Positions 16,031-61,820 of a stretch of DNA of 64,000 nucleotides are shown one piece after another; the first letter of the stretch is position 1; every line of letters begins with the position of its first letter. The translations under genes were made by a program, and so were the position numbers. The stretch is taken from contig NC_090288.1 in assembly GCF_037392515.1 (NCBI RefSeq), positions 7,805,501-7,869,500 on the forward strand. The letters run 5' to 3'. The stretch is from Haliotis asinina. Its lineage: Eukaryota > Mollusca > Gastropoda > Lepetellida > Haliotidae. Below the pieces are notes generated by a model. It saw nothing but the letters and a program-made list of their open reading frames with translations. It did not search any database and was not told where the DNA came from.

Positions 16031-16565
16031 ATGACAACTGGAAGTAACAAATCATACTGACTAACAAATATGTATTGAGTTGGCGAGGTGTCGTGGTTTC
16101 TTGAGGCTCGTTTGTTAGCATAGCATATATGTTGATGTTAGGCCATGATTTCGACAGTACCAGTGCATATCCCCTTATTCGAACACTTGGTGTCATCATT
16201 GATTCTCAGGACTCTGTACTGTCATTGCCATTGCGACAGTTAAGCCCACTGTTTATTCTCTGGATTTGATGTTATACGGTACACTGGGATTACAACGAAC
16301 GAAAATAACAAAATTACGGACACAATGAACTGTTTACTTGGTCATTGCCACCTGCTGTCTATTTTACTCGAAATGCGTTCAATGAACTACAGTTATAAAG
16401 AAATGAAATCAGTGGGCCCTTTGCGTTCGATTTAACCGTAAATGATATCACCTGAAAACAGTCATTGACCAGAGACTGTTTTCCCAAAACATAATCGATG
16501 TACTTTTAATCATTGAGTAAATTCTGTTTACATTGATTTCTCATTTGAACATATTTTATTTTCAG

Positions 16566-17432
16566 GGTTCGTCCATTGGAAAGAGGTCAACAGAACGAGC
16601 AATAGACTTGGATCTCGAATCTCAATTGAGCAGAGTGAAGCGACTAGATCCTGGAGTTCCCGAGCTTTCTCGTACTAAGAGACGAGATGTCGAGAATGAC
16701 GGATTGTCACGCATGAAGAGATATAACACCGATGAAATGCCGTCCCTATCGAGAGAGAAACGGGGCGAGATAGAAAATGCCGCACTTTCTCGAATGAAAA
16801 GAGGTGATGTTGACGACAACCCTGTCTTATCTCGTGAAAAAAGGCAGGATTTGTCTGAAAATATCGGTCTCTCTCGCATGAAGAGAGGCGATGAATCGCA
16901 TGCTGAACTATCACGCGAAAAGAGACATGATGCGGACAGTTTAGCACTTTCGAGAACAAAGAGAGAGGGGAAGAATCTCTTGAGGGTGAAGAGAGTGGAT
17001 CCCGATTCAGTGGAACTGGACAGAGCTAAACGAGGCGAGGTAATTCTGATTCGCAAAAGGCGAAACACTGATGATGCAGGAAAGGACATTTCTGGTAACA
17101 TCATTCCAAAGGAGAAGACACAGAAGAGGAAAACCGAAAACCAAAACCTTGACAAGGCTGATCAGAAACCATTGGTGAAGAAGTCATCTCACATGAAACG
17201 AAAACGAGGCTACTGGGAGAAGCGAAAAAGGGGAGACTATTTGGTCCGTGAAGTCAACAGGAGAGAAATGTACCACAAGAGAAGAAACATGAACAAGAGA
17301 GGAAGATCAAAGCTGATGAAGAAGAAAGCCATCCAGGGCAAGCAGAAACTTCAGAAGGAGGCGAAGATGAAGCGAAACTGGAAGAAGACCGCCAAGAAGT
17401 CACTCGGCAACAGTTCCATTAAACACTTATAA
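16566..17432 (+). CDS. Terminal exon of a multi-peptide propeptide (neuropeptide/hormone-precursor-like)
   Basis: The exon opens after a strong acceptor (TATTTTATTTTCAG, ending 16,565) in phase 0 and ends at TAA 17,430-17,432; about 288 residues are encoded. The first two-thirds hold about eleven acidic segments of mostly 13-14 residues, each closed by a dibasic site. Nine of these end in Leu-Ser-Arg-X-Lys-Arg with X = Met, Glu, Thr or Val. The last third is very basic (KRKRG, KRRNMNKRG). KR sites are typical prohormone-convertase targets, so secretion and processing in endocrine or neural cells is inferred. A signal peptide must lie in an upstream exon that I did not find. An amidation-type GKR occurs once, at the exon start; other peptides would have free C termini. 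I do not match it to a named molluscan precursor. A polyadenylation signal lies at 17,971. Repeat units differ at most synonymous positions, which strongly supports real coding. Confidence 0.75.
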   Translation, partial: GSSIGKRSTERAIDLDLESQLSRVKRLDPGVPELSRTKRRDVENDGLSRMKRYNTDEMPSLSREKRGEIENAALSRMKRGDVDDNPVLSREKRQDLSENIGLSRMKRGDESHAELSREKRHDADSLALSRTKREGKNLLRVKRVDPDSVELDRAKRGEVILIRKRRNTDDAGKDISGNIIPKEKTQKRKTENQNLDKADQKPLVKKSSHMKRKRGYWEKRKRGDYLVREVNRREMYHKRRNMNKRGRSKLMKKKAIQGKQKLQKEAKMKRNWKKTAKKSLGNSSIKHL

Positions 17433-31257: not shown

Positions 31258-32041
31258 ATGGGCTCCTTCAGCGTTGACAACAACGTTGCATCGTCTGTTC
31301 ATGGAGTGGATGAGACGGTCGATGAAGGCCATAGGAACTTGCGCCCAGACTCGGTGATACGAGTGAGACTAGAGAGAGAGTTCAGTTGCAGTTGTCCTCC
31401 TTGGTCACACATCACTGAGCTTCCTCTGAATCTCCTCCCACAAGCGTTCTGTCAGGTGTAACTCTGGACCGAGGGAAGGCCATTGCAGAGTTTGTATGCC
31501 TTGTTGACGGAGAAAGTCTCTGGTTGTTCTGGCAGTACGGACACGCGCGTTGTCCTTCTGGAAGACGTGGTTTCCATGACGACCAAAATGTAGGGCCCCA
31601 CGCCATTATGATGGAACCTCCACACGAGTCTCTTCTCTTCTTTGCCACACCCTCACTCAGCCATGAGCCGTCGAGGGGCAGTTCGCCACTCCCAGTGCCG
31701 CCAGTTCCGATGATGTGTACCCAATAGAGACGAGCACGAGGATGTCGAACAGTGAGGATCGGACCCCAGTAAGGCCTGCGACATCTGATGTTTCTCTGCC
31801 TCAAACGCCTCAGCACTGTGTCGGCGCTGATTGGTCTCAGGTGATTGCCAGTTGTTGTCCGAGCAGTTTCAGAAGCCCTAGTGAAACGATATTGCAGGTG
31901 ATGACGGACAATCTGCCGATTTTGCCTAAACGTTGTGACAGTCAGTGTTCCTCTGCGAGGGCGGTCGGCTGTGCTCCAGTGGCTTGGACTGGTTGCTGTG
32001 GGCGGTAAAATGATTTGCAAAATGTCTTGCAGTCTGACCAA
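31258..32041 (-). pseudogene. Decayed Tc1/mariner-family transposase
   Basis: The minus strand encodes a Tc1-like transposase scattered over all three frames. The first part (about 31,965-31,720) has RPRRGTLTVTTFRQNRQIVR and SADTVLRRLRQRNIRCRRPY, which match the second DNA-binding subdomain and linker of Tc1 transposases. In other frames GGSIIMAWG, QKDNARVRTAR (second catalytic Asp) and LRQQGIQTLQWPSLGPELHL follow in the correct order, then a C-terminal frame near 31,260-31,330. The DESRF block with the first aspartate is lost or altered. At least two frame changes make it non-functional. I see no inverted repeats. The T-rich stretch at 32,200-32,310 lies just outside. Confidence 0.85.
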
Positions 32042-32199
32042 TATTCAGTCATCCTAAAGCTTGGTCCCTCTGTTCCCTTGGTGAATGGTTCGGTGCGTGT
32101 TCGGTGGCTCCTCGAGATGTACGTACATTGTCATTTTTATGAAATTCAAATATGCACAAAAACCTCGTCCCATCATTACTTTAGTAACTGTGCGCTTTG

Positions 32200-33010: not shown

Positions 33011-33133
33011 AAACATTGACAAAACATTGCTTTTGAAGGGGTCAAGTGTATAGGTGGAAAAAAATTAGGTAATTAGGTAGTTTCACGTTGCCACTCTTCG
33101 TTATTGGGAAATCTGCGAACGCCAGGTGTTTTA

Positions 33134-33249
33134 TACGGAACCGTAGAGGGGACATGGGATACGAAAATAAAAATCAATACTAAGCCACGAGATAATTAAA
33201 TCAAGGCCACGAGATAGTAAGTCGTGGCCACCATAATTTGGCCAATGGA
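33134..33249 (+). repeat. Left terminal inverted repeat
   Basis: Begins TACGGAACCGTAGAGG. The inner part has two direct sub-repeats built on CCACGAGATA (near 33,185 and 33,208) and ends with AAGTCGTGGCC. Inner conservation between the two ends suggests transposase-binding sites. Preceded by target duplication GTTTTA. Confidence 0.92.
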
Positions 33250-33288
33250 CATTCAGGTTACGTATTTTGGATTTTTAGATGGAGGACC

Positions 33289-33353
33289 TCGAGCGTTTTC
33301 TCAGAGACAGGGGTGTTCCCAAAGAAAACGTTCAGCTACTTGCTGCTGACAAG
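33289..33353 (+). pseudogene. Putative first coding exon of the HECT cargo gene
   Basis: ATG at 33,289, just inside the left terminal repeat, opens 22 codons (MEDLERFLRDRGVPKENVQL in part) before a possible donor AAG|GTAGAA at 33,353. The peptide looks like the short SAM-like helical start (F-L-x-x-R-G-V-P-x-x-N-V) that I associate with long transposon-carried HECT proteins. Without a spliced transcript the link to the HECT exons 4 kb downstream is an inference. Its placement at the element edge and its plus strand fit. Confidence 0.5.
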
Positions 33354-33830
33354 GTAGAAAGAAGATAGGGTTTTCGCGTAAACTGTATTCTTTAGGTTTG
33401 CATGTAAAAATCACATTCATTACTCAATCTGCATATTCCCGCTAAACGATTGTCTCGGCACAAGTGTATATAACATTAAGCGATGAAGAAGTAAGCTTTG
33501 CTTTTAGATAGGCGATTTTGTACCATATTTAAGATTCTTGACTATTTTCCACAAAGACCTAATTACAAAGTTCAGCGTTTTGAAGGGGCAGATCTTGAAT
33601 AGTACTATTATATATTGCAGTAATCATGGTAATGTTATCCTACATACAAAATCGTTTGACATCATCAGGCAACCAAATGAGTTCCTGTTCTCTTTGGGTT
33701 TTGTTTTAAACCAAGTGTAAAATATATCGAAACAAACAAACTTCTTAAACAAATGGGATATGCCATGACTTGTATGTAATAATGTGCACATTTATCTTTA
33801 GTTAAAGTTCGAAGTAATAAGACCTATCAC

Positions 33831-33886
33831 CCACCCACCCACACACCCACCCACACCCACACCCACACCCACACCCACACCCACCC
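33831..33886. repeat. C-rich (CCCA)n/(CCCACA)n tract inside the transposon
   Basis: About 55 bp of CCCACC and CCCACA units followed by (TA)n. The minus strand has many GGG runs and quadruplex potential. It lies in what should be an intron of the cargo gene. Confidence 0.85.
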
Positions 33887-34292
33887 ATATATATATATGC
33901 ATGAATATTGAAATAATCATTTCTGCTGACGAATGGCATCGACTTTCGTCGCGCGTTTTCGATTTTGAACAGCCTTAATTTTCTGGCATACAGGAGATGG
34001 ATATTTCTTACATATACATGCAGACGTATATACGCACATCTTTTACAGTGTAAATATTGCAGATGTGACGTTACGTCTTAACATGCTTTTACTGTGTAAA
34101 GGAAGGACTCAGTATTATTTGATGCAAAATATGAGAGTAGGAGCTTCTTACTTAAACGTACGCAAATTAGAAAATTAGAAATTTGATTTATCTTAATGTA
34201 TGCAGTTGTATGAAATGCCTTGGATTTGTTCTTTTGGAGATTCTAGACATTATTCTTGTTTTTTCTGAATAACCTGGACAACGAAGATTGAT

Positions 34293-35040
34293 GAAGGCAC
34301 TCCAATCGTTTCTACCGGGACGCCTACTTCTTCTACCGGGACGCCGACTGCTTCTACCGGAACGCCCTCTGCTTCTACCGGGATGCCCACTTCTTCTACC
34401 GGGATGCCCACTGCTTCTACTGGGATGCCCACTTCTTCTACCGGAATGCCCACTTCTTCTACCGGGACGGCCACTGCTTCTACCGGGATGCCCACTGCTT
34501 CTACCGGAATGCCCACTTCTTCTACCGGTATGCCCACTGCTTCTACTGGGATGCCCACTGCTTCTACTAGGATGCCCACTGCTTCTACCGGGACGCCCAC
34601 TGCTTCTACCGGGATGCCCAATGCTTCTACCGGGACTAATACTGCTTCTACTGGAATGGCTACTGCTTCTACCGGGACGACTACTTCTACCGGGATGCCC
34701 ACTGCTTCTACCGGGATGCCCACTGCTTCTACTGGGATGCCCACTGCTTCTACCGGGACGACTACTGCTTCTACTGGGATGGCTACTGCTTCTACCGGGC
34801 GACTACTTGTTCTACCGGGACGCCCACTGCTTCTACTGGGATGCCCACTTCTTCTACCGGGATGCCCACTGCTTCTACTGGCATGCCCACTGCTTCTACT
34901 GGGATGCCCACTTCTTCTACCGGGATGCCCACTGCCTCTACTGGCATGCCCACTGCTTCTACTGGGATGCCCACTTCTTCTATCGGGATGCCCACTTCTT
35001 CTACCGGGACGCCCTCAGCTTTAACGAGGACGCCTTCTAG
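34293..35040. repeat. 21-bp minisatellite inside the transposon (Ser/Thr-rich frame on plus)
   Basis: About 35 copies of a 21-bp unit such as CCCACTGCTTCTACTGGGAT. On the plus strand it reads (M/T)PT(A/S)STG, a mucin-like Thr/Ser/Pro-rich heptad; on the minus strand VEAVGIP. Both frames stay open because the unit is a multiple of three, so openness proves nothing. On the plus strand the array is split between two frames by indels near 34,680 and 34,795. The last plus frame leaves the repeat and stops at 35,141-35,143. It could be a linker of the cargo protein, but no flanking splice sites are convincing. Confidence 0.9.
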
Positions 35041-35370
35041 TTCTTTGGGGACGACTACTGCTTCTGTTAGCACGCCGACTGTTGTTTTCAACTCGTGCAG
35101 TGTACGTATAACTTTGATGGATGGAACCATATATATACCGTAGAACTTTGATTTAAATCAACTCCCGAAGAATAAAAGTGATGTGATCCAACAAAAGCTA
35201 AGATACAGTTAATATATTGCTAAGTCTTTGCAAACATCTAGTATCCACTGTTATTATATTACTTATTACTTTTACTATATTTATTACTTTAGTCAACCTG
35301 TCTGGACAAACTTTACATTGCACACGGTTATGGTACTTGATATTTCATACTTTGTTGTTCCGCACCCTTG

Positions 35371-36428
35371 CTGATGATTCACTACCAGATCTAGACTTTG
35401 TTGTTTCTCACCCTTGCTGATGATTCACTACCAGATCTAGACTTTGTTGTTTCTCACCCTTGCTGATGATTCACTACCAGATCTAGACTATGTTGTTTCT
35501 CACCCTTGCTGATGATTCACTACCAGATCTAGACTTTGTTGTTTCTCACCCTTGCTGATGATTCACTACCAGATCTAGACTTTGTTGTTTCTCACCCTTG
35601 CTGATGATTCACTACCAGATCTAGACTTTGTTGTTTCTCACCCTTGCTGATGATTCACTACCAGATCTAGACTTTGTTGTTTCTCACCCTTGCTGATGAT
35701 TCACTACCAGATCTAGACTTTGTTGTTTCTCACCCTTGCTGATGATTCACTACCAGATCTAGACTATGTTGTTTCTCACCCTTGCTGATGATTCACTACC
35801 AGATCTAGACTTTGTTGTTTCTCACCCTTGCTGATGATTCACTACCAGATCTAGACTTTGTTGTTTCTCACCCTTGCTGATGATTCACTACCAGATCTAG
35901 ACTTTGTTGTTCCGCACCCTTGCTGATGATTCACTACCAGATCTAGACTTTGTTGTTCCGCACCCTTGCTGATGATTCACTACCAGATCTAGACTTTGTT
36001 GTTCCGCACCCTTGCTGATGATTCACTACCAGATCTAGACTTTGTTGTTCCGCACCCTTGCTGATGATTCACTACCAGATCTAGACTTTGTTGTTCCGCA
36101 CCCTTGCTGATGATTCACTACCAGATCTAGACTTTGTTGTTCCGCACCCTTGCTGATGATTCACTACCAGATCTAGACTTTGTTGTTCCGCACCCTTGCT
36201 GATGATTCACTACCAGATCTAGACTTTGTTGTTTCTCACCCTTGCTGATGATTCACTACCAGATCTAGACTTTGTTGTTTCTCACCCTTGCTGATGATTC
36301 ACTACCAGATCTAGACTTTGTTGTTTCTCACCCTTGCTGATGATTCACTACCAGATCTAGACTTTGTTGTTTCTCACCCTTGCTGATGATTCACTACCAG
36401 ATCTAGACTATGTTGTTTCTCACCCTTG
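35371..36428. repeat. 46-bp satellite, 23 exact-length units
   Basis: CTGATGATTCACTACCAGAT begins at 35,371 and recurs every 46 bp up to 36,429 (23 intervals). Units differ only by TTTCTC/TTCCGC and CTTTG/CTATG. The unit equals the start of the cargo-gene exon at 37,177 plus CACCCTTG. Confidence 0.97.
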
Positions 36429-37176
36429 CTGATGATTCACTACCAGATCTAGACTTTGTTGTTTCTCACCATTGCGGGCAATGCAGTCAATTTCAGCTGA
36501 TGATTCACTACCAGATCCAGACTTTGTTGTTTCTCACCCTTGCGGGCAATGCAGTCAATTTCAGCTGATGGTTCACTACCAGATCTAGACTATGTTGTTT
36601 CTCACCCTTGCGGGCAATGCAGTCAATTTCAGCTGATGATTCACTACCAGATCTAGACTATGTTGTTTCTCACCCTTGCGGGCAATGCAGTCAATTTCAG
36701 CTGATGATTCACTACCAGATCTAGACTTTGTTGTTTCTCACCCTTGCGGGCAATGCAGTCAATTTCAGCTGATGATTCACTACCAGATCTAGACTTTGTT
36801 GTTTCTCACCCTTGCGGGCAATGCAGTCAATTTCAGCTGATGGTTCACTACCAGATCTAGACTTTGTTGTTTCTCACCCTTGCGGGCAATGCAGTCAATT
36901 TCAGCTGATGATTCACTACCAGATCTAGACTATGTTGTTTCTCACCCTTGCGGGCAATGCAGTCAATTTCAGCTGATGATTCACTACCAGATCCAGACTT
37001 TGTTGTTTCTCACCCTTGCGGGCAATGCAGTCAATTTCAGCTGATGATTCACTACCAGATCTAGACTATGTTGTTTCTCACCCTTGCGGGCAATGCAGTC
37101 AATTTCAGCTGATGATTCACTACCAGATCTAGACTATGTTGTTTCTCACCCTTGCGGGCAATGCAGTCAATTTCAG
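36429..37176. repeat. 68-bp satellite, 11 exact-length units
   Basis: After 36,429 the same unit gains 22 bp (CGGGCAATGCAGTCAATTTCAG). The CTGATGATTCACT start then recurs every 68 bp to 37,177 (11 intervals). Each unit therefore holds a TTTCAG 3' splice-site-like sequence followed by the first ~36 bp of the exon. Confidence 0.97.
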
Positions 37177-37411
37177 CTGATGATTCACTACCAGATCTAG
37201 ACTATGTTGTTTCATCAGGAGGTGAGGAATCCGAAATAGATGTTGAGGACCAAAGTGGTGAAACTGTATTCAACACGTCACATACAGTGGCGTGGATTCA
37301 AATGAAGAAAGTGACTTGTCAGTATTTGACATACAAAGGCAGTTCCATCGTGACCTTTTGCATACTCGGAATGACCAGCCACTCTCCCAGCCTTCACATA
37401 TTAGACTTGAG
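37177..37411 (+). pseudogene. Acidic linker exon of the HECT cargo gene, frameshifted
   Basis: After the acceptor AATTTCAG (ending 37,176) the frame reads ADDSLPDLDYVVSSGGEESE and on through an acidic stretch. Near 37,285 the sensible frame changes by one base; the second frame reads SNEESDLSVFDIQRQFHRDL and reaches a possible donor GAG|GTAGTG at 37,411 (or GTGAGA at 37,420). Acidic D/E/S-rich content between an N-terminal helical part and a HECT domain is ordinary for such ligases. The single-base shift suggests decay. This exon is the source of the upstream satellite. Confidence 0.55.
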
Positions 37412-37789
37412 GTAGTGCGGTGAGAGAATTATTTATGTGATTCAAGCATAAGTGCAAATCAGTTTCATCAGTAAACTGAGGTTTACTATACCTAAATCAG
37501 TCACGCTAATAAAGTAAAACGTTTGCCATTTTCCCGATTGAGCTGACTTGCAGCTTAATAAAAACCCATGTAGATATCGCCAGTCAGTATTTCCGCCGTC
37601 ACTGACATATGCTTATGCAAACATTGATCTTAGATATAAAGTAAAAGGTCGGTTATTTACCATAGGTATTATCAAGTGTATACTTTCATATCCATAAAAG
37701 GGAAAATGTAACACTAAAGGTCTCCCACAAACTGTTAAAATAATTTGGCCTGAGTTCAGAATTGTTTTTCTTGTTTAACAGCCATTGAG

Positions 37790-38074
37790 AACATCTTCAC
37801 GATATTTTGACCAGACTCGCGTCAGTGATCATTGAAGAACGACGGAACATTGTAAATGTCACAAGACATAATGTAATGTCTGGTTGCATCAGAACTTTCA
37901 ACAGGCCATCTTTCAACCCTGAAAATGGATTGTCTGTTAAGTTTGCTGGAGAATATGCAATAGATGATGGCGGTCCATGCAGGAAGCTTTTAAGATTGCT
38001 TATGAAAGAAATATCTTCTCTCACAACATTCACGGGTGGCGACACAAAAAAGATGCTGGAATTATATTACACTG
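37790..38074 (+). pseudogene. HECT-domain exon 1 (N lobe) of the transposon cargo gene
   Basis: This encodes the first part of a HECT E3 ubiquitin-ligase domain. RRNIVNVTRHNV is followed by RPSFNPENGLSVKFAGEYAI and DDGGPCRKLLRLLMKEIS, matching the signature V-x-F-x-G-E-x-x-x-D-x-G-G-P-x-R-E-F-F. The relation is closest to the G2E3-like HECT proteins common in fish and invertebrate genomes. HECT enzymes take ubiquitin from an E2 on a cysteine and pass it to a substrate. The donor is ACTG|GTAAGA at 38,074, phase 1. The left boundary is less sure: the HECT frame is open only from 37,789, while the better acceptor (TTTAACAG, 37,781) would need a small frameshift. Confidence 0.8.
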
Positions 38075-38386
38075 GTAAGAACTGACACGTTCAGTGAGGT
38101 GTATTGATTTTTGCATAACCGTTTGTTTACTTTGAACACAAGTTTATGGATAGGATATAGGTTATTCGACTTGAATTGAACAGGATTTTATTGCTATTCT
38201 ATATTTTGTAAAATTATATCTTTTAGCTCTTAGATCTATTTATACCAGTATCGTGGCTGGATATGTTGATTTACATATGCCAAGATGTATCCCAAATGGT
38301 AAAAGGTAGAATACATCTATAGTAGTCTCGAAACAAATTATATTTAAAGGTTTATAGTTTCACTGATATACGTTTTCTTATTTTAG

Positions 38387-38565
38387 CTCTACAAAGCAGT
38401 CTCTGCTTGACAGTGGGGAAGATGATAGCATAATCTATAGTTCACAGTGGGCCTCTTCCACGGTTTTTCATTCCTCTGCTGTTCAGTACACTTGTTGGCG
38501 ACAGCCAAATTCAGCCAAAGATTGATGACATCCAAGATGGCGCACAGAGAGAAAGTCTGCTGAAG
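38387..38565 (+). pseudogene. HECT exon 2 with an in-frame stop
   Basis: The acceptor TTTTATTTTAG ends at 38,386. The exon joins in phase 1 to exon 1 (ACTG plus CTCTA gives Thr-Ala-Leu) and reads ALQSSLCLTVGKMIA, stop, SIVHSGPLPRFFIPLLFSTL and on to QRESLLK. The G-K-M-I-A-x-S-x-V-H-x-G-P-x-P-x-F-F pattern is the HECT continuation. TAA at 38,431-38,433 replaces a conserved codon and would truncate the protein in the N lobe. The donor AAG|GTCGAT at 38,565 is poor. Splice phase is preserved even though the frame is broken, so decay is recent. Confidence 0.78.
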
Positions 38566-39028
38566 GTCGATTCAAACCCAGTACCCTAATTAGGTTTACA
38601 TGATGCGTTTAAAGATGTGTAATTGCCTTAACTGCATTTGCGTGGCCGTTTAGTGTCGTATATGTTTCATTTATTAAACAAAATGTATCAACTAGAATTA
38701 CACTTGAGAAATACATGTATGTACAGTTTCATACTGTTTCAACACTGCTATATTTGGAATAACACTATATGTAATAGTAACGATTCAAGTACTTTGTGCT
38801 TAAGTGCCATTCGGCACACCATAAGAACCCACACTATAAGAATAGACACCAATTTGCCAGCATTACAACTTCCACCGTGTACCACTTCAACCACAGAATC
38901 ACCGGGCATGGAATCCATATGTTATCCCCCAAATAACATTTTTGCATTTATTCATCAATTAAATGTCATTAATTACCTCTTTCATGATTTCTTTGTTTCT
39001 GAATACTTAAAACTATAGTGTTTTCCAG

Positions 39029-39201
39029 ATACGAAATGCAGAGGACATGTCTTCGTACCTGGATGCCGTAGGTGGTGCTGATCAACTTATCCAGCTTGCT
39101 GCTTGCTATTCTCTTACTCTCTCCTTTGCAAAGAAGGATGAACTTTGTGATGCCCTGATCCATCTTATTGTGCTTGGCAGAATCAAAGAGTGCCTTGATC
39201 A
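39029..39201 (+). pseudogene. HECT exon 3
   Basis: Acceptor GTTTTCCAG ends at 39,028. In phase 0 it reads IRNAEDMSSYLDAVGGADQL, then AKKDELCDALIHLIVLGRIK and ECLDQ, ending at the donor CA|GTATGT (39,201). It is the helical segment following the ubiquitin-E2-facing part of G2E3-like HECT domains, ending in the typical Leu-Asp-Gln before a Phe-x-x-Gly-Leu. Uninterrupted in this copy. Confidence 0.72.
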
Positions 39202-40136
39202 GTATGTATTGCTGCTAAGCTTTTCAATGAAGATTTGGTCTAGCGTGAAGACAATTTTTATGGATAGACGACTTCTTTATTTTGTATATATGTCGACATA
39301 CGACATAGATCACTTGTCACTTACAGCGACATCAAAATCCATGTTGCAACGTCACCTATACAGAATAAAGAAGTCGTATATCCATAAAAATAATTCATCA
39401 TTTTTCACCTACCCAGCTTCTACAATAAAAAAAGGGCAACATTTGGTCGTTCACGGTCTTGTTAATTTCTTCCAAACGTTTTTTGCTAGACAGAATAATA
39501 TTTCTACCAAATAGGCTACCAACAGTATATGTCCATTGTGGGTGTTACGGCTAGATCAGTACACGTTCCCCTTCTCGCGAACACCTCGCATGTATTGTGA
39601 ATTTTATTAGGCAGACACAATAAATGACAGTCCCAAGGTGTTGACGTTTACTGTTACGGTTGTTAGATGCAAACAGGTTCGTCAGTGTTGGTGTTGCTGA
39701 ATAGTGTCATAATGCAATAGAGGATTAAGTAGTAGTATTTGCCACAATATAATACGCAAACGTACGCGTTCGTTAAACCCGAAACATATTTGAAATGTTT
39801 GCACAGTAAAACCAGATATTATTCATGACAGCAATGCACAATTATACACATGAATATTGATATTTTAGTATTGATCGTTCATGTGATAATGTATGAAACT
39901 GTCTTTAGCAGAGCGTTCCAGTGACACAAACACATGAAATGGGAAAATGATCAAGAACAATTTATTTCATAAAGTGGATAATCCGTGGATTTAACGTGAG
40001 AGTTAAAGTGCGTAGTGTATTTGTTTCCTTACACAAACTACTTCAAGCTAACTGAAGTTCATGTCTTCGATTTCTGGGTCTTTATGAGATTCATGTCTAC
40101 TACATAATAGCACAGTCAAATTATATTCATTTCTAG

Positions 40137-40403
40137 ATTCCAAAAGGGACTAGCCACTTTGGGAGTGCATGCAGAAATGATTCATCACAGCACAGAAGTG
40201 AGAGAACCTTTCTGTTTTGATGAAGTTGAACGCTTCTCTGCTTGAAATGGTGTTCAGCGTGTCATCATCCTCCGAACCTGGGAGCAGCAGAATGGAAGAA
40301 GAGACAGTCACCTATTGGATGGACAATCTTCTGGACGTAGCGAGTAATGGGATAAGAAAGACAGTCAGGCGTTGGTATGCTAACGTCATAATAAACCGAC
40401 AGT
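40137..40403 (+). pseudogene. HECT exon 4, frameshifted; catalytic-cysteine exon not found
   Basis: Acceptor CATTTCTAG ends at 40,136. Joined in phase to exon 3 it reads Q-FQKGLATLGVHAEMIHHSTE, then VREPFCFDEVERFSA and a stop. The continuation lies one frame over, from 40,217: NASLLEMVFSVSSSSEPGSS, then EEETVTYWMDNLLDV, the G2E3-like (Phe-Ser-x-x-Gly-Ser, then Trp-x-x-x-Leu) region. A donor-like GTAATG follows at 40,344; otherwise the frame stops at 40,403. No downstream exon with the conserved catalytic Cys of the C lobe is recognisable before the convergent integrase gene, so this gene is truncated as well as frameshifted. Confidence 0.65.
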
Positions 40404-40654
40404 AACGTCACTCTGTTGCTCGTAAGTGACACTTTTCCTTATAATATTCCTCAAATCTGCTACAATCTCGCTTCCTCGGGTATTACTTATCTAAATAATG
40501 TCCCTCTGTCACGGGCAGTTATCTTAATAACGTCCCTCTGCCCGGGGATTTTCTGAGGAATAGCCCTGGACTTTGAATTGTTACTTATTTTTGGAGATTG
40601 ACACGACTTCGTCTTGCCACCGCTGACTGCGATCTTTCCAACATGTAGGGCCGA

Positions 40655-40718
40655 CACCCGGTTTCGAACCCGCGACCCTTCTCTTATTAGGTTATATCCA
40701 CTAGACTACGAAGGATCA
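40655..40718 (-). mobile_element. tRNA-like SINE head fragment within the transposon
   Basis: Minus-strand tRNA-like segment: complement of a B box (GGTTTCGAACCCGCGACCC) followed by GGTTATATCCACTAGACTAC. It lies between the two convergent genes. Head only. Confidence 0.5.
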
Positions 40719-41002
40719 CTGTGAAGAATGAGGTTGTTCGTCGGCATGAACCGTGTGTTCCTGATGCAGCGCACGTGCATTGTGAGGCATTGGCTGGAAA
40801 TGGCATCCCAGTAGATTTCAGCAGTAAAGACCAAATATTCAAATTATATCCAAAGTATATATTTGGTCGGTATATATGAATATATATAACATAACCCGCG
40901 GGCATAAATGAAAAGTAAGGGGGCAACGACGTACATCTGGTAGGAGCATGCGGTTTAATTATACATAACATTTTAGGACAGGAACTCATAGATTTCTTGT
41001 CG

Positions 41003-42202
41003 GACTTATCTGTACAGATCAGCTGCTTCTTGAGCATTCGTTGGTGGTTGTAGGTTGTCTCTCCCCATGATCTTAGTACATATTTCATAAACGTCTTCGT
41101 CACAAGGAATTGTTGAGCGAAGCACAGATTCCTCAAGGCAGGTAGAGACGTCTTCGTCTTCGTCTTCAATTTGCCATAGAGCAGGGGCACTGTACATTTG
41201 CTCTGGATGACCACTGGCAACATTGTTTCTAGGGGACCTAATACAATGCTTGGCCCAGACGGCAGCCACGGAATCCAGATCATCCTAAAAATGTTACACA
41301 GTTGTTTCAGACCGATTTATCTGGTGCATATTAAAACAGCAAACATGCGACATTATATTACATTGACCATTGCAGGTAACAGCAACATGATTTTCTTAAT
41401 AAAGGAAATTTAGATGTATAAAGTCGTTACTCTACATAGGAACAATTCAATTCTACTTGATACAATAAAGTGTACCTGAACAATAGCCATGAAACAAAAC
41501 TGAATCAAGTTTTGTCCAAGAAATCTCCCCTGAAGTCACTATTTTGCTCCAGACCATTGAACGTGTCAATCCAAAACTGTGTACATTCCTTTCTTAGGAA
41601 TGACCACCAGACTTCTATTCTTTGATTTGACGTGCTTGGACCGTCAATGAAGCATCGTCTGGTTTGTGGATCTGTATTGTCACGTCTAAGATATTGTTGA
41701 TACTGTCGGACGTGCACATTTTCCGTACCAAGATCAGCCCTTACAATGCGTGGACAATCTCTGTGGGTCTTATCGGCCTCTAAAAAATATCCACCAATTA
41801 CCTCTGGATTGTTGTTGGTATTGTAGGCCTTGATCCATATTACTTTTCTGGAAAATCCAGAGATTCGTCGAAGTCTCCTTGACGCAACTCCCACGGGATC
41901 TAGACAACGCATAATACGTCTTCCATCCTAGCTTTCAGACCGCTTTGTTGACATTTAGCGTACATGATACGGTATCCACACAGCTGTCCTGAGGCTGATA
42001 GTTGATCCTGTATAAAACTCACATCATCCACGAGAGGGCCGAATTTTCGACGACTCAGATTCATACTCCTCAGAATTCTCTTAAGGTGTCGCACACTTAG
42101 TTTGAAACCATTGATGTAAAACAGAATGTACACAATATCCTTGAGATTGATTCCAAGATAGAAATAATGTGATATAACTTCACTGCGAAGGTCAAGATTC
42201 AT
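41003..42202 (-). pseudogene. IS3-like/retroviral-type integrase (transposase) of the 9.26-kb transposon
   Basis: From ATG 42,202 the N-terminal part reads DIVYILFYINGF, then LSVRHLKRILRSMNLSRRKF and SGQLCGYRIMYAKC. This is a helix-turn-helix plus the G-x-x-x-G-Y-R segment seen in IS3 OrfB-type transposases. A frame change near 41,910 leads to LDPVGVASRR. The core follows: ISGFSRKVIWIKAYNTNNNP, RADLGTENVH (second Asp) and STSNQRIEVWWSFLRKECTQ (Glu). The segment carrying the first catalytic Asp (W-H-x-D-G-Y-D-K-L in relatives) is deleted between RRLRR and ISGFSRK. A one-base loss near 41,510 precedes QFCFMAIVQ, donor CAG|GTACAC at 41,476. The last exon (41,284-41,003) reads DDLDSVAAVWAKHCIRS and ends NAQEAADLYR. 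The C-terminal pattern matches the integrase-core family widespread in fish, cnidarian and mollusc genomes. Non-functional in this copy. Confidence 0.85.
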
Positions 42203-42275
42203 AATATCACCAAAGCTTGAGAAGTAATGGAATGATGAAAAGTCTACAAAATGGCTGACCAAAACTGCAATTCTG

Positions 42276-42395
42276 TTGGCTAACTTATCTCGTGACCACG
42301 ACTTATTATCTCGTGACCTCGACTTAATTATCTCGTGGCCACGACATATTATTGATAATCATTTTCTCATTCCATGTCCCCTCTACGGTTCCGTA
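42276..42395 (-). repeat. Right terminal inverted repeat
   Basis: Read inward from 42,395 it begins TACGGAACCGTAGAGG and continues with CCACGAGATAATTAAGTC, GTCACGAGATAATAAGTCG and GGTCACGAGATAAGTTAGCC. It thus has three CACGAGATAA sub-repeats, against two at the left end. Target duplication GTTTTA follows at 42,396-42,401. Confidence 0.92.
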
Positions 42396-42401
42396 GTTTT
42401 A

Positions 42402-49888: not shown

Positions 49889-52532
49889 TTACTCCTGTCC
49901 TTGTGACTTCCTGACTCTCTTGAAGCAGAGTGCTACTTCCTTATCCATTATTCCTGTCCCTGTAGCAAAGTCCACCTCACACCTGCAACATGATAAACTG
50001 ATAACACCAACAGCCTAATCCCTGAGACATGGTTTAATTGATGAGACCCTTGAAGGTCCGGGTTAGAATATTGATCTTCAGTAACCAATACTTGGAAGAG
50101 CCAATTAACGGGTGGTCAGGCTCACTGACGTAGCTGACACACGTCATCGGTTAACTTTTGCGCAGATCGATGCTAATGTGGCTGATCACTGGATTATCTT
50201 CCCCAGACTCGATTATTTACAGAACTGGAATACCTGGAATATAGTGCGGCTTTAAAATAAACTCACTCACTCGCTGACCATTTGTGTGAGATTTGAAACC
50301 AATATCGTTGGTGTTTTAAATGTTAAAGCTATTCAATGGCTACAGTGAGGAAAAATACATACAACAGAAACGACCAAAACATTTCCTTAAGAAATCTCTT
50401 CTAAAAGCAGAGTCGATTGTATAAGTCTGTCTGTATCATGAGTGTGTGTTTGTTTTAGCAGTACTACAGCTGTATGATGTTGGTAAACAACCGAATCAGG
50501 ACAGACGATCCAGTGATAGTGATGTTCACTAATATAGAACATGCATTCTTCAAAATATATATGCAGAAAACATAGATAGTTTGTTCAATGTACCTGTATA
50601 TATTAACCGAGTTTACATCTGAATTATTTCAATCTCATTCAAAGTATATGCTGAGAAAAGCCAAGTTCACACCCAGATTTTTACATGCGAGAACTGTGGA
50701 ACGTATGTTAATAATACTTACATTTTACCATTGATAACAAAGCTCCTCGTCCTAGCTTGCATATATTCTTTGTATCTGTCCTCAAATATTTGACTGTCAC
50801 TGACATCACTCCATGTTCCCCCTGGGCTCTTCCAAGACCATGTCCAAACTCCTGTCGATGAGTTCTTCAGACTGACTTCTTCCTTCTCCCCATGTCTCTC
50901 TTCCGCTTCCACCGGAATCTGTCCAGTTTGGTTTCTAGCTGTAGTGAGCTTCTCTGGTACTTTCATCTTTTCACTTTTACTAAATCCGGATAGTGCAAAA
51001 TATCTAGTTACTTGGTACCGTTTATTTGGTGTTGGTGTGGTTTTGTTGTATCCGTCAGCAAGTCTGCCCTGAGTTCCAGCTGAGCATTGAACCTGTCTTC
51101 CATGATTCACTGGGTGATTGTCTTTGGTTGCTATGGATTTAAGGGTTTTGACAACAACTTCTTTCTCATGACCATTCGACGGACTTATTCCGTAACGTCG
51201 GAGACACCGTAGTGGTTGGTTTGCCATATCATGAGACAAATTGCACATGTATGGAGCACTGCAGGTTCCATGGAGGAATTTTGAACATAAATGCAGAAAT
51301 CCGCATTCATCCTTGTTGCAGCCATTTGGCTTGTTGTAGTAATTGCATGTCGTTGGAACAGTTGTGGAATTTCTATATCTCAGTGAACAAAGGACGTCAA
51401 ATTCAATTTTAGTTTCGAACTTGTGCAACAACGATTTCCTCAAAACCTCTTTATTGTGTTCTGTGTTCATGTCATGACCAAAGATACACGTCTTCCCCTG
51501 TTCTTGCATGGTACATTCGCTCAAAACAAGATATTTGCAGACATGAAGGCCTCTGCAATCTTGTGTGCATGATCCCGCTTTCTTTGAATGTTGCTGACAC
51601 AGGAGTAGATTTGGATGACCAGTCACAAGAAACGTATCCTCAGCTGCTGTTTCCTCCACTTCACCATCTTCAATCGCTCTTTCATCCCTGTCAGTGTCTC
51701 CTTCTATTTCAAAAACGTTGTCATAAGCTTTCAAGAAGTCATATAAAGTTTTCGTGTTGGAAAAAATGATAATCTTCTTCTGATGAAGAGTTTTTCTCAA
51801 GTTTGCTAAATGAACCTCGCCAGGGTAATCTACACATACTGTTCGGAGAATCAAACTGGCCAGGTCTTCTTTCTCTGCTGTACTTGATGACTTTATTCTC
51901 TCTTCTGTATCAACTGGTTCAGGCGACGTTGCGGTTACACGGTTGAATCCCTCAGTTCCAGATGGCATCCTGCCATGGACGTTTTTGTTGCCTTTGGTGT
52001 ATTTTCGCGCATTTGCTCCGATGTCTGCTAGTGACAGGTTCATCCTACCCGGGGCCGTTTGATTAACATACCCTAGATTAAATGAATTATCTTCTCCTTT
52101 GTCATTGTTCCATTTGTGTTTCTTTCTTCTGATCCTACCCGGTGACCTGCTTCTGTCATTTCGGAAGAGGCCTGGTTCAGATGACTTATTATCAGGGTGG
52201 GACCTTTTTCTACATCTGCTTATCCTTCCTGAATGCATTCCATCCTTTTCCTGTGAACCACATCTTCTGCTAGTCCCTTGTCTTACACCTACGTCATTTC
52301 CTTTACCCACGTCCTTCCTGCTGGTCCGACCTATGTCCTCTTCTGTACGCTGGTGCCGTGGATGTCCACCAAGATTCCATCTTGTCTCTCTCGTCGGACT
52401 CCAGTTCGGAATGATTACCTCATCTTGCATGCCTTCCTTGTGCACCACCCCCACGTTCCGGGCATCGTTGATCTGATGCATGTACCCCCGATCTGTACCA
52501 ATGGCACATGTGCTATAATGATGAGTGTGCAT
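49889..52532 (-). CDS. ZAP/PARP12-like CCCH zinc-finger protein with a C-terminal WWE domain
   Basis: The main exon (52,532-50,722) encodes 603 complete codons. Residues 220-276 form a winged-helix-like segment. Four CCCH fingers follow: C312-H330, C332-H353, C396-H414 and C416-H434. A WWE domain starts at W563 (W-x-W, then FEDRYKEY). A consensus donor AT|GTAAGT ends the exon. The acceptor GTTGCAG (49,983) joins in phase to give CEVDFATGTGIM and FKRVRK, completing the WWE, and a stop follows at 49,889, so about 634 residues. In vertebrate ZC3HAV1/PARP12 this architecture binds CpG-rich or viral RNA and the WWE binds ADP-ribose; many relatives then add a PARP domain, absent here as in short ZAP isoforms. 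Function in RNA sensing is inferred. The first ~210 residues match nothing I know, and an in-frame stop sits directly before the ATG. Confidence 0.82.
50040..50277 (+). mobile_element. SINE family A copy in the intron of the ZAP-like gene
   Basis: TTGAAGGTCCGGGTTAGAAT, GATCACTGGATTATCTTCCC, GATTATTTACAGAACTGGAA and AATAAACTCACTCACTCGC. It lies inside the single intron (50,721-49,983), opposite in sense to the gene. Confidence 0.82.
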
Positions 52533-54965: not shown

Positions 54966-56303
54966 TACTACCGACAAGAAATAAGGGAACTAATGAAATA
55001 ATAGCGAATTTGAAACTGCTTTAAATATCCACTAAATCAATTTTAGGCGTCAAGTTCAATATCTGGTGTGTCCACCATGTTGGGCAACACATTCACGGCA
55101 CCTTGATGGCATGCTGTTAATCAATTTCCGGATGGTTGCCCGTGGTATTGCCCACCATTCCTCTTGGAGAGCTGCACCAAGCTGGGCCAGGTTGGCGGGT
55201 CCTGGGTCCCTGGCGTACACCCTTCGACCATGAACGTCCCAGAGATGTTCAATTGGGGACAGGTATGGGGACTTAGCGGGCCAGTCCAATGTCTGGATAC
55301 CTTCTTGTCGAAGATAAGCGGAGACAATTCGGGCCTGATGTGGTCTGGTATTATAATGTTGGAATACAAAATTTCGGCCGATAACTCTAGCCAATGGAGC
55401 CACAACAGGACGCAATATTTGGTCAACGTATCGCTGACCAGTCATGGCTTCGTTAATGATGACCAAATCTGATCGTCTGTCATGTGTAATCCCACCCCAC
55501 ACCATGACAATACCACCTCCATATCGATCATGGTCAAGAATTGCTGCTCTGGCATATCGCTCCCCGCTCCGATGCCAACAACGTTTTCTGCCATCTGTGA
55601 ATCGTAGGCAAAACCTTGACTCATCAGAGAACATGGTGTAACGCCAGTGGCGCATAGCCCGTCCCTGATGCTGCCTAGCCCATGCCAATCTTAGGCGCTT
55701 ATGGTGAGCTGAAAAGGTGACACCCTTAAAAGACCGTCTTGCTTTCAGACGAGCTTGATAGAGTCGGTTTTTAACGGTTGAGGTTGAAATGCGTCTTCCA
55801 GTGAGTGTGCGGAATTCTCTATTGATGGCAGGGGCCGATTTAAACCTATCGCGTAGAGCAATTAACGTAATGAGACGATCCAGTCATGGTGTCGTTGATT
55901 TTGGTCTACCACGCCCAGGTCTTGTTGCAACCCCACAGGTTTGACGGTACTTATCCTAGAGGCGTGAAATGACACTTTTTGATTTACCCATCTGCCGGGC
56001 AACTTCACATAATGATGTCCCCCCCCCCCTCTATCATCCCCACAATTCTCCATTTTGTTGCTTCACCGAGATACTGCCTCGGAGGCATTTCTGTCAGTAA
56101 GTGTCAATCTCTGTTGCATTAGTGATTGCAACTTCTCCAGTACATTTACAGGAGTTAACTTCTGTATGCACGTGTTAATTATTATGCGAAATTCCATTGT
56201 CATTGGATGTTGCGTTTGGGAGATACGCCACGATAACGGACCCTGTCACAGTCAAAGCCATCTACATTCAATTTCTTGGTTCCCGTATTTTCTGTCGGTA
56301 GTA
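54966..56303 (-). mobile_element. Complete Tc1-type transposon with TIRs and TA duplication
   Basis: The ends CTACCGACAAGAAATAAGGG (from 54,968) and, inverted from 56,301, CTACCGACAGAAAATACGGG are terminal inverted repeats of about 30 bp. TA flanks both sides (54,966-54,967 and 56,302-56,303). The total of 1,334 bp is typical for Tc1. One transposase gene on the minus strand fills it. Inserted between the THAP and catalytic halves of the P-element-like gene. Confidence 0.9.
55056..56055 (-). pseudogene. Tc1-like transposase, inactivated
   Basis: From about 56,050 the N-terminal helix-turn-helix part is broken by a frameshift in an 11-base C run (56,019-56,029), then a TAG about 60 bp on and a TGA about 90 bp further. 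The rest is open to the stop at 55,056. FSDESRF holds the first catalytic Asp. HYNTRPHQAR is where the second Asp should be (usually Q-D-N-A-R-P-H), and it is Tyr. SPYLSPIEHLWD carries the Glu. Relative length is full (~340 residues). Four independent lesions, including loss of a catalytic residue, exclude activity. The family is unambiguous. Confidence 0.9.
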
Positions 56304-58039: not shown

Positions 58040-61000
58040 CGATGAGCTGCCGTTGATTCTACACAACAAGCAGAATGTCAACCGGCATAGACAACTTTGC
58101 CCCGACTGCATTGTCACTGCTCTGGAACCCTTATGAGGGTCGTCAGACAACACAGACTTCTTCAGCATTATTGGTCATTGCAGCAGACAACTTTACGAAT
58201 CAGCCATCACTACACTCAACGCAGCCTTCCACACAGATGCCCTCATGCTACATGAGCTTCGTTTTGAAGAAGAACGAAGACTAGCTCCGTGTGAGCAGTC
58301 ATCTGGATCTGCACTCACTCCAGCGGATGCACACACCTGTTCAACACGATCATCTCGGCTGCTGCGACTGCTGCTCTGTGTGAGCACTCAACTAGATCTA
58401 CACTCACTCCACGGGAGGAACAAGAAGGTCGTCATCTCATGCTACATGAGCTTGGGAAGCGTCGTTTTGAAGAGGAATGAAGACTAGCTCCGTGTGAGCA
58501 CTCATCTGGATCTGTGCTCACTCCAGGGGAGGAACAAGAAGATCGTCATCTCGTCGCAGTTTGGAGAGAGATCCACCTACATAGAGTGAGTGAATCCGTA
58601 CAGGTGAGTGCGCTCTGGTGAGTGCTCTGACATCCCGTCGCAGTTCAGAGAGAGATCCACCTATGTCGGGTGAGTGCGTGCACGCACGTGAGTGACTACA
58701 CACGTTGTGAATGAGGATACTCGCTTAGGTGAATGTTCTCACAGCCCGTCACATTTCGGAGAGAGAGCCACCTACGTTGAGTGAGTGCACCCGTATGGGT
58801 GAGTGCACTCACATGAGTGACTACGCTTACGTGAGTGAAGACGCTTACTCGGGTGAATACTCTCACAGTCTCCTCAGCTCGTCGAAGGCGCGTCAACACT
58901 CATCATCCCCTTCAAACCTGGACTCACATATGAAGGATCATCGGCATCCATCGAAAGCATTGCATTCACAGGTGGATGAAGGCAGATACAACCGATCTTC
59001 ACCACCAGAGGAAGCCCTCTTCTCGGACTCTGAAGTTACATTTTGATCACGAATGGTCTGGACTTGGTCTCACCATCCAAGAACTCCAACGAAACAAACA
59101 TTTATAGGTTGAAGAATGAAAACATTGACAAGTTGATGTTTCTGCTGATAGCTATGAATAGCTATGATTCCCGACATGTTATCTACGGTATTCAAGTCAG
59201 CAACAACATATGCCACTTTTCAACACTCGTCGCTTCCTTCTTCACCATATGGAGCCCTTCATCAGAGCACCAGATGTAGACAAGGCATACAAAGCACTCG
59301 TCACACAAAAGAATTATCAGCAGTTATGTTCTAACACCTCGCTTCTACTACTGTGGACTGAATCTACTTCGTCAACAAGGTCTCTTGTCTGCCTCATCAT
59401 GGAAAGAAATTTTCACAAGGCCCTTATATCAAGCCCCGTGGTCAGCACCCATAATATTGTATGGGAAGATTGAAGAGAGAGCTCAGATGGTCACCCAGGA
59501 CTCCAGAGGAGTCATGATGGTCAAGTCCATTGATACAGACAACAGTGCTTAAGCAGACAAGTCAGTGTTACAGTAACAAGTCCAAGTTCTCCAGAGTCCA
59601 GAGATTGAGAGATGAGAAGTTTAATACTAGAGCAGAAGAGGAGGTAAACATTGAAGTTCAGGTTCAGAACGACTGGAGTCTTCTAACCCTAGCCGTTCCC
59701 ATACAAGTGGGTGGTCATCTTCAACTCTACTGGAAGATTTGTGGAATTCTTTCAGACAAATTCGTCACAAAGATTCTTTGAGACGACTACAAGATATCAT
59801 CGCAGGCTACACCTCAGATCACATCTTCCATCTTCGGTGGAGAAATTTGGTGGGAAAACTTCCCACACATCTGCCTAGAGGACTGTCAGTCTGCATCATC
59901 CTTAAACGGTGGGAGTTTTTTCGCGCTCTTTTACTCATCTAAACACATGCCTGAATGCTAGCAAGGGTATCACCGTCTGAGCAAGATTTCACGATGATCA
60001 GTGGACTGCTACACCGGTGACGTCATGTCTACAATCTGATTGGTCTTTGATAGACAACAACCTGCGCAGAATGTGGTGTTATTGTTCCAGTATCAGGAAG
60101 TCATTGATGACTTTCAAGGCTGGAAAGATGTCGATTACACACTAGATTAACACTTTACAGCGTCATTTGATTCTTCAGGCAGCGTCGAGGTCTTCTAACA
60201 GCAGACTCAGCATGGCCTATCTTGAGGCTTGCAGCAATGAATGACAGCTCCTGATCGGAGAGGCAGCCAACTATAAACAGACTTCCTGCAAATGTCAACA
60301 TGCTCATAATGAACAGTATCTGAAAATGAAGACTGACGTATCTTCACGGCATAGAATTTCTTCATGAGAGAAGTCAACTCAGTCTACAGTTGGACTTCAC
60401 TATCAGGCAACTAACTTGATTCATGACTACATGGAAATACACGGTTGTCGCAGAGAATCGGTGGGTCAAAGTTCAAGTTGATGTTAGAACAAGTTCTACT
60501 CTCTCTGCTACCATTATGACAGTGTCAGTGTCTACTCGGTCTGCTCACATCATCTCAGGATATGTCATTCCTGAGTCACGGTTTACAATGCTGGACATCC
60601 TGAGACGACACCTGCTATGGGGAACTTGCCAGTCAAATGTCTGCGCAGGAACGTATATGTTACAGTTGGCATTCAACAACCATCTATGTAGACACATCTC
60701 TCCAAGGATGGGGTGCCCATCTAACCAATGACGTTGCAGCAGGAATCTGGAAGAAGGAAGACCGAACTCTTCCCATTAACCAGTTGGAGATGAAAGTGGT
60801 GATTCATGCTATCCATCACTGGTCGTCAACACTGAGAGACAAGCTACTGATCATCCACACAGACAACTCAACAATGGCTCTCTACATAAACAAGCAAGGG
60901 TTAGTGAGATTGCCATCTCTACTACACTTCTTGTTTCAACTCTTCAACATGGTCGAAAGTCTAAATCTCCGAATAAAAGCATGTCACATTCCAGGAGTCT

Positions 61001-61820
61001 GCAACATCACGTCCTCTTCATCCATCACCAACAGATCGGATGCTGCCTCGAGAGGTGTTTTAACTAATCAGCCAGATATTTGGATCGCTGCAAATAGACT
61101 TATTTGCAACAAGGTTCAACAAACAGACAGCAACCTTTGTGTCATCCGTACCCGATCCCTTAGTCTGGGCTACAGACGCTCTCAGCATCCTGTGTCAAGG
61201 ACTAAACGCGTTTGCGTTTCCCCCTCCAGTGCTGCTACCAAAAGTCATCAAGGAAATCAAACAAGAAGAAGGAGCTACAACTGATCTTGGTCACACCTTA
61301 CTGGCCAACATGACATTGGTTTCCAACACTTTTAAAAGAGTTAGGACAACCAGTGCTACAATTACCAGATTGAAAGAATTTTCTCGTTCATCTTCACACA
61401 AAACAGGCACACAGCAAGCCATCCGCGTTTCAACTACACATATGGACTGTATTAAAACCTGTTTGGAACACAGAGGATATTCAGCGAGAGCAGCCACCTT
61501 AGCCTTACAGGAATCCACTTGCACACTATATGATGACAAGTGGAAATGATTTTCGGCAAACGCCAGGAAGAAGGGATTCATGGCGATGAAGGCGACACAT
61601 CCTCAGATAGCCAATTATCTGCCATCTACGTCATTCCAGAGGTCTTGAAGGCTCTACATTATCTACATACTTTGCAGCTAAATGTTGTATTTCAACATCA
61701 CACCAGTGATGCGTATGAGCCGCTCGATCGGACCTCAATTGAAATGCTGACTCAAAAGACGCTATTTTTTTACTTGCCTTGGCTACAGTTGCAAAAATGT
61801 CAGAAGTTCATGCTCTAGAC
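58040..61820 (+). mobile_element. Decayed DIRS-type retrotransposon (RT/RNase H, tyrosine-recombinase class)
   Basis: The best part is 60,670-61,060: IYVDTSLQGWGAHLTNDVAA, LPINQLEMKVVIHAI, IIHTDNSTMALYINKQG and KACHIPGVCN. This is the DIRS/Ngaro-type RNase H with its Asp, Glu and Asp. Upstream, 59,700-59,770 (VGGHLQLYW) resembles the start of a DIRS RT region, and 58,200-58,900 contains gag-like repeats. Downstream, SSVPDPLVWATDALSI and AFPPPVLLPKVIKEI, then LYDDKWK, match the segment leading into the tyrosine recombinase, which is too eroded to show its Arg-His-Arg-Tyr residues. Frames shift many times. Terminal repeats were not identified, so the borders are approximate. Confidence 0.75.
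58236..58900 (+). repeat. Internal tandem duplications in the DIRS 5' region
   Basis: GCTACATGAGCTT, TTTTGAAGA, AGACTAGCTCCGTGTGAGCA and TCATCTGGATCTG occur at 58,246-58,330 and 58,440-58,520. A second unit (GAGAGAGATCCACCTA, GTGAGTGCG) repeats about every 90 bp at 58,563, 58,649 and 58,759. Confidence 0.7.

Follow-up and report, generated by a model that had tools for sequence, protein, structure and literature searches.

An IS3EU-like transposon copy with a HECT ubiquitin-ligase-like gene facing its transposase in Haliotis asinina

IS3EU elements, treated together with GingerRoot, usually produce target-site duplications (TSDs) of 6 bp and have TA..TA termini and a transposase related to those of IS3 and IS481 (PMC10045372; here, as for every article cited below, in the sections consulted), and those of rust fungi have TAYGG..CCRTA ends and terminal inverted repeats (TIRs) of more than 30 bp (PMC12730594). 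We report here on an element from the mollusc Haliotis asinina, lying in a window of 64,000 nucleotides of contig NC_090288.1 (the window being the whole stretch of DNA analysed), which has in common with these a 6-bp TSD, ends of the TAYGG..CCRTA type and an IS3-type DDE core, and which, as judged from its sequence, fits the IS3EU superfamily by TSD length, termini and integrase type. It differs from them in that a HECT gene faces the transposase gene, a layout found again in all six families that we read in the host genome (A, B, C, D, E and G); no such gene appears in the IS3EU accounts just cited, and the words "HECT" and "ubiquitin" do not occur in the main texts of either article.

A protein-modifying second gene opposed to the transposase has a precedent, since in the TET-bearing IS3EU elements of rust fungi an alpha-kinase gene lies opposite the transposase gene, with a TET/JBP gene between them (PMC12730594). 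Those elements are fungal, however, and their enzymes are an alpha-kinase and a TET/JBP dioxygenase, whereas the present ones belong to an animal and carry a HECT ligase gene. Transposons of the RAG1/RAG2 type (Transib/ProtoRAG) are comparable in that two proteins come from one animal transposon and that RAG1 carries a RING with E3 activity (PMC4411706), but their transposase is of another superfamily and the RAG E3 is a RING fused to the recombinase, not a separate HECT protein. In a literature search on titles and the beginning of abstracts, with Repbase outside its scope, we found no account of a HECT gene in IS3EU or in any other DNA transposon, and the sections consulted of PMC8195603 and PMC12062965 describe no such transposase-HECT pairing.

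The copy in the window

The element occupies positions 33134-42395 (9,262 bp; Table 1), has the termini TACGG..CCGTA and is flanked by an exact 6-bp TSD. Its TIRs, of about 115 bp, are 80% identical over 120 aligned columns, with a complementarity of 86% in the outer 49 bp and of 90% in an inner stretch of 48 bp. A first-pass annotation, made from the letters alone, had described inverted ends of this length and a perfect GTTTTA duplication around a complete transposon. The ends and the duplication are as it described them, and the element is complete at its ends, yet it encodes neither full protein because of stops, frame breaks and losses in both genes; as judged from its reading frames, this copy is dead at the protein level and non-autonomous. 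The empty site that the annotation proposed to look for was not recovered: the joined flanks match nowhere else across the junction in the host genome, and the right flank alone falls within a repeat.

The transposase gene, on the minus strand, reads inwards from the right end and has two exons and an IS3-type core (the exon borders of both genes were read from frames and splice signals). PF24764 (rva_4) matches at 41505-41927 with E=3e-13, and the joined exons reach 66.3 bits (E=4e-18). The frame breaks near 41927 and near 41511, and the segment with the first catalytic Asp is absent, leaving about 33-36 codons fewer than in the genomic copies C3a and C1; this segment is still present in copies C15 and C3a. 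Of the integrase with a D...E core that had been announced, the IS3-type assignment stands, but the first Asp is missing here. When Pfam was run on the transposases no zinc domain turned up, Clr5 remaining under its cut-off at 19.8 bits, and no search aimed at HHCC was made.

The HECT gene, on the plus strand, reads inwards from the left end, spans 33279-40343 and faces the transposase gene. The multi-exon HECT gene reading rightwards that the annotation had proposed is confirmed by five plus-strand exons and by scores above the Pfam cut-off once other copies are used. The HECT prediction is weak from the window copy alone and is firm only with the other genomic copies. Indeed, PF00632 gives 14.2 and 13.7 bits on the window copy, under the cut-off of 23.9 bits, a Pfam search with its single HECT exons returned no match, and E6AP is its sole match against PDB (E=0.73). 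When C1 and C9 are spliced by hand into a composite, the score is 49.1 bits (E=8e-13), and the C-lobe of C1 alone gives 31.9 bits in the genome scan. The C-lobe exon, with the catalytic Cys, has been lost from the window copy and is retained in C1; at the deletion junction of Table 1, C1 has about 2.1 kb more and C15 about 3.8 kb more, this exon included. The in-frame stop of the window copy is absent from C1 and present in C15. In addition, a coding stretch of C15 (its region positions 875-1126) has no counterpart in the window copy according to the alignment, as noted at the 21-bp minisatellite.

Families and pairing across the host genome

A search of the host genome (1.14 Gb) with the left end gave 23 matches. 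Ten two-ended copies were read, in four families (five of A, two of B, one of C and two of D); families B to E were sorted by near ends, each with a TACGGAA start, using the open C3a transposase frame as query (56 matches). A perfect 6-bp TSD and a TACGG start are present in all ten, and the end is CGTA in nine and ATA in the tenth. Both genes lie within one set of ends in nine of the ten. The exception is C3:21579122, a family A copy of about 6.2 kb with HECT exon 1 and part of the C-lobe, whose ends are the same but enclose no transposase match, as would be seen in a deletion derivative. The co-occurrence of integrase and HECT within the ends, as the annotation had it, is thus the rule with one departure.

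Family A, to which the window copy belongs, has the TSDs GTTTTA, GTAAGG, GTGTTC, CATTTC and CACAAC (the CACAAC pair was recognised by eye). Both genes are present in C15 (10,841 bp) and C1 (11,172 bp), the transposase and part of HECT in C3:43135447 (3,633 bp), and every family A copy read contains stops or frame breaks. At three family-A-like places, on C7, C5 and C13, no second end with a matching duplication was found. Outside family A, we read the interior of a single copy in each of families C, E and G and of two copies in each of B and D; a third D copy was read in part. The two B copies measure 5,693 bp (TSD CATCAT) and 5,149 bp (GCTTAC), the C copy 6,127 bp (GTAACT), and the two D copies 6,225 bp (TCACAG; C15:46061767-46067991) and 6,597 bp (CAAAGG). 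For E, G and the third D copy we did not find a pair of ends, and no TACGGAA-type end was seen at two loci termed F and at several others. HECT frames converge on the transposase in every B, C, D, E and G copy read, and the positions of further hits suggest that more families than these six have this layout. The stretch C13:7894683-7902390 holds two facing family-C transposases with two HECT matches between them, perhaps two adjoining elements.

The first D copy has an open HECT frame of 649 codons and an open transposase frame of 343 codons (the main exon of each gene). The 649-codon frame is also open in the third D copy and differs from the first by just 8 substitutions, from which we think that family D has probably moved recently. 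PF24764 scores 94-100 bits in families B, C and D, and the catalytic residues D170, D229 and E267 are invariant in their transposase alignment. PF00632 exceeds 23.9 bits in A (copy C1), B, C, D, E and G, and of the six PDB matches of a B/C/D HECT profile the best three are HECT ligases, with weak E-values of 0.35-0.52. The proteins thus resemble HECT E3 ligases such as E6AP, AREL1 and HUWE1 by a PF00632 match with the Thr-Cys motif, and differ from them by a divergent N-lobe and by lying in a transposon. Their N-terminal part has no Pfam match; on our own reading it may contain SAM-like and ubiquitin-like folds. G2E3-like ligases have PHD/RING fingers ahead of HECT, and the label "G2E3-like" given by the first-pass annotation is not supported, Pfam finding no PHD or RING finger in the 649-codon family-D frame or in a 610-codon family-B frame.

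Subterminal repeats with a period of 21 bp are present in all nine A-D elements tested (in copy C1 at the right end only), and their palindromic core varies by family: CGTGGCCACG in A, TTGAAATTTCAA in B, CGTAATTACG in C and CGTGCGCACG in D. These repeats may be transposase-binding sites that diverged along with each transposase.

For the genome-wide counts, a locus was called paired if a match to the other gene lay within 15 kb, and a transposase locus was called "core" if its match reached residue 225 or beyond of the family-D query; the counts are lower bounds, because the scans score best candidates only (68 of 111 for HECT, 118 of 153 for the family-D transposase). With the family-A transposase query, a HECT match lies within 15 kb at 34 of 42 loci, convergently in all 34 cases and within 5.1 kb in 32; the eight others have E-values of 2e-10 to 1e-4. 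The family-D HECT protein gave 75 matches in 39 loci, which four family-A stretches entered by hand bring to 43, and the family-D transposase gave 110 matches in 75 loci (37 core, 38 matching its N-part only). HECT is present at 35 of the 37 core loci and at 5 of the 38 N-part-only loci, and a transposase match accompanies 40 of the 43 HECT loci. The two genes converge, tail to tail, in all 40 pairs, a layout that ProtoRAG also has; about 0.04 pairs would be expected by chance (42 and 39 loci). Genes that never share ends would have spoken against a single two-gene element; with nine of ten copies and 35 of 37 core loci, the idea survived in the host genome.

Eight HECT loci had seemed to be orphans, and only three stay unpaired once the family-D transposase query is added (C2:12469369, C6:65089528 and C8:33861364); these may be copies in decay or genes that the host has captured. 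Four HECT loci with 26-27% identity, which had looked unpaired, each lie near a weak transposase match (30-35% identity, E-values of 4e-8 to 1e-6) in the same layout, which suggests, by position only, a further and deeply divergent family. At one N-part-only locus (L069, C9:43517900-43520100) the match ends just past WHMDGY and is followed, by eye, by sequence resembling a long interspersed element. In the viral contigs searched there was no relative, two pattern scans yielding three loci without convincing similarity.

What the HECT gene may contribute

We think it fairly probable that the window element is a decayed copy of a two-gene transposon of the IS3EU type, in which HECT would be an old, inherited partner of the transposase, active as an E3 and aiding the persistence of the element. 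The transposase would recognise the 21-bp palindromic repeats that each family has near its ends, and would move the element by cut and paste. Persistence would be aided by the HECT protein, whose most likely role is to ubiquitinate host factors involved in silencing or restraining the element. That its targets are host silencing or repair factors is a matter of judgement, to which we give about even chances. More tentatively, one may propose that the pair of transposase and HECT E3 defines an old animal branch of IS3EU, a selfish ubiquitin ligase co-evolving with its transposase and removing host restraint factors or dismantling the strand-transfer complex, and that part of the HECT expansions derives from transposons; we find this attractive, but consider it less likely than not.

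The inheritance of HECT is suggested by its exon 1, whose end position is common to families A, B and D, as expected of one inherited gene rather than of repeated captures. The hypothesis that HECT came from the host by a chance capture, or belongs to another mobile element nested here, can draw on the fungal TET/JBP genes, which move between IS3EU and other transposons (PMC12730594), and on the three HECT loci and two transposase-core loci that are unpaired. However, in families A to D a single TSD encloses both genes, and the orientation is the same at all 40 paired HECT loci, so that capture or nesting is contradicted in the host genome, and with the common exon 1 end we consider it very improbable. 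The pairwise identities of HECT and transposase also correlate over five families (Mantel r 0.85, a value that only the observed order of the 120 reaches), in a comparison with D-anchored alignments in which the D-E pair has much influence. Such correlated divergence, together with the regular pairing, is what one would expect of a protein partnership, and hence of a HECT ligase acting on the element's own transposase, either by marking it for turnover or by stripping it from a stable strand-transfer complex for host gap repair, which would limit or complete transposition. In other DDE systems stable transposase complexes do need removal. A RING with E3 activity is part of RAG1, a recombinase that derives from a transposon (PMC4411706). 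Simple co-inheritance yields correlated divergence too, though, and we regard the transposase or its DNA complex as a somewhat unlikely target.

The divergent N-lobe and the weak Pfam and PDB scores would suit a HECT protein whose ligase activity is no longer used, and which serves as a structural cofactor or host-targeting adaptor. This is improbable in our opinion, given the six families above the Pfam cut-off and an active-site Thr-Cys kept in 12 of 12 C-lobes read (two of A, two of B, C, three of D, E, G, L046 and L052), of which the first A C-lobe could not have failed the count because it was located by motif search. The window copy and C3a have no C-lobe.

Several observations nevertheless weigh against an active, inherited partner, and should be acknowledged. 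All pairing data come from one genome. Two core loci are unpaired (C12:36245748 and C6:33294642, the latter with E=4e-38), and 33 of the 38 loci that match only the N-part of the transposase have no HECT nearby; a truncated derivative that became amplified may account for these N-part-only loci. In families B and D the sequence beyond the C-lobe matches PF00632 weakly. The only relative in prokaryote genome contigs, L068 (2141-2598), consists of pieces of an IS3EU-type transposase, 58% identical in the best segment, on a 3.8-kb contig that has no HECT, is filed under a sponge-symbiont (Cycloclasticus) genome, is perhaps sponge DNA, and is not long enough to reveal whether there is a second gene. 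Finally, the ratio of nonsynonymous to synonymous substitution rates (dN/dS; within-family pairs, uncorrected p values) for HECT is 0.39-1.27 in family A (10 pairs, one with p<0.05) and 0.62-1.94 in family D (none significant). For the transposase it is 0.52-0.91 in A (6 pairs, one with p<0.05), 0.43 in B (p 0.011), 0.49-0.88 in C (10 pairs, one with p<0.05) and 0.40 in D (not significant). Since the within-family values are not decisive, the case for selection on HECT rests on its conservation between families.

To our knowledge, most accessory genes of DNA transposons in eukaryotes have DNA or chromatin as their target; a ubiquitin ligase that has stayed with the transposase while six or more families diverged would bring the host protein-degradation system into transposon biology. 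The pairing would also offer an enzyme with a known assay, and family D, with its near-identical copies and their open frames, makes the HECT question amenable to experiment. For the annotation of such a genome it matters that many of its HECT matches lie within transposons. If the idea of a selfish ligase is true, part of the lineage-specific HECT expansions in animals would be transposon genes and not host genes.

Features of the element and of the rest of the window

Table 1. Positions in the window of the features read in the element (TRF, Tandem Repeats Finder)
Feature	Position	Strand	Basis
Left TSD, GTTTTA	33128..33133		exact repeat of 42396-42401
Left TIR, start TACGGAACCGTAGAGGGGAC	33134..33245	+	pairs with 42276-42395; same end in other genomic copies
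Subterminal 21-bp repeats, left, palindromic core like CTCGTGGCCACGAG	33184..33231	+	TRF, period 21, 2.2 copies
HECT exon 1, MEDLERFLRDRGVPKENVQLLAADK, donor GACAAG/GTAGAA	33279..33353	+	25-codon frame; similar exon, same splice position in families B and D
21-bp minisatellite, 34 copies	34310..35021		TRF
46-bp and 68-bp minisatellites	35349..37213		TRF
HECT N-lobe exon (5' border uncertain), ..SVKFAGEYAIDDGGPCRKLL.., donor ACACTG/GTAAGA	37789..38074	+	frame and E6AP alignment
HECT exon, ..LTVGKMIA*SIVHSGPLPRFF..	38387..38565	+	frame; in-frame TAA at 38431-38433
HECT exon, IRNAEDMSSYLDAVGG..	39029..39201	+	frame
HECT exon, FQKGLATLGVHAEM..	40137..40343	+	frame; break near 40238-40240 in window copy
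tRNA-like B-box sequence	40640..40715	-	direct reading
Deletion junction in window copy	40919..40922		pairwise alignments with C1 and C15
Transposase exon 2, DDLDSVAAVWAKH..AADLYR	41009..41284	-	frame; similar exon in the second family D copy (D2)
Transposase exon 1: N-terminal region plus integrase core with RADLGTEN at 41718-41741 and NQRIEVWW at 41604-41627	41476..42202	-	PF24764 matches, comparison with C15 and C3a
Right TIR, end ..GTCCCCTCTACGGTTCCGTA	42276..42395	-	reverse complement pairs with 33134-33245
Subterminal 21-bp repeats, right	42285..42352	-	TRF, 3.2 copies
Right TSD, GTTTTA	42396..42401		exact repeat of 33128-33133

Three minisatellite arrays lie inside the element. ARAGORN called no tRNA on the tRNA-like stretch, which we take to be perhaps a short interspersed element, and at 39254-39391 there is a hairpin with 88% complementary arms, resembling a miniature inverted-repeat transposable element.

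Elsewhere in the window, a minus-strand frame at 55056-55883 is a Tc1/mariner-type transposase with matches to HTH_Tnp_Tc3_2 and DDE_3, and another on the same strand at 31412-32044 was judged by eye to be of this type. An RNase H-like frame on the plus strand at 60604-61549 (PF17917, 23.1 bits for a cut-off of 24.8) is followed by another frame, and may be part of a DIRS-like retroelement. At 50718-52532 (minus strand) a frame of 604 codons has PARP12-like CCCH zinc fingers (PF25261, E=4e-15). A plus-strand frame of 303 codons at 16521-17432, with no Pfam match, has repeated LSRMKR/LSREKR units and resembles a prohormone or neuropeptide precursor.

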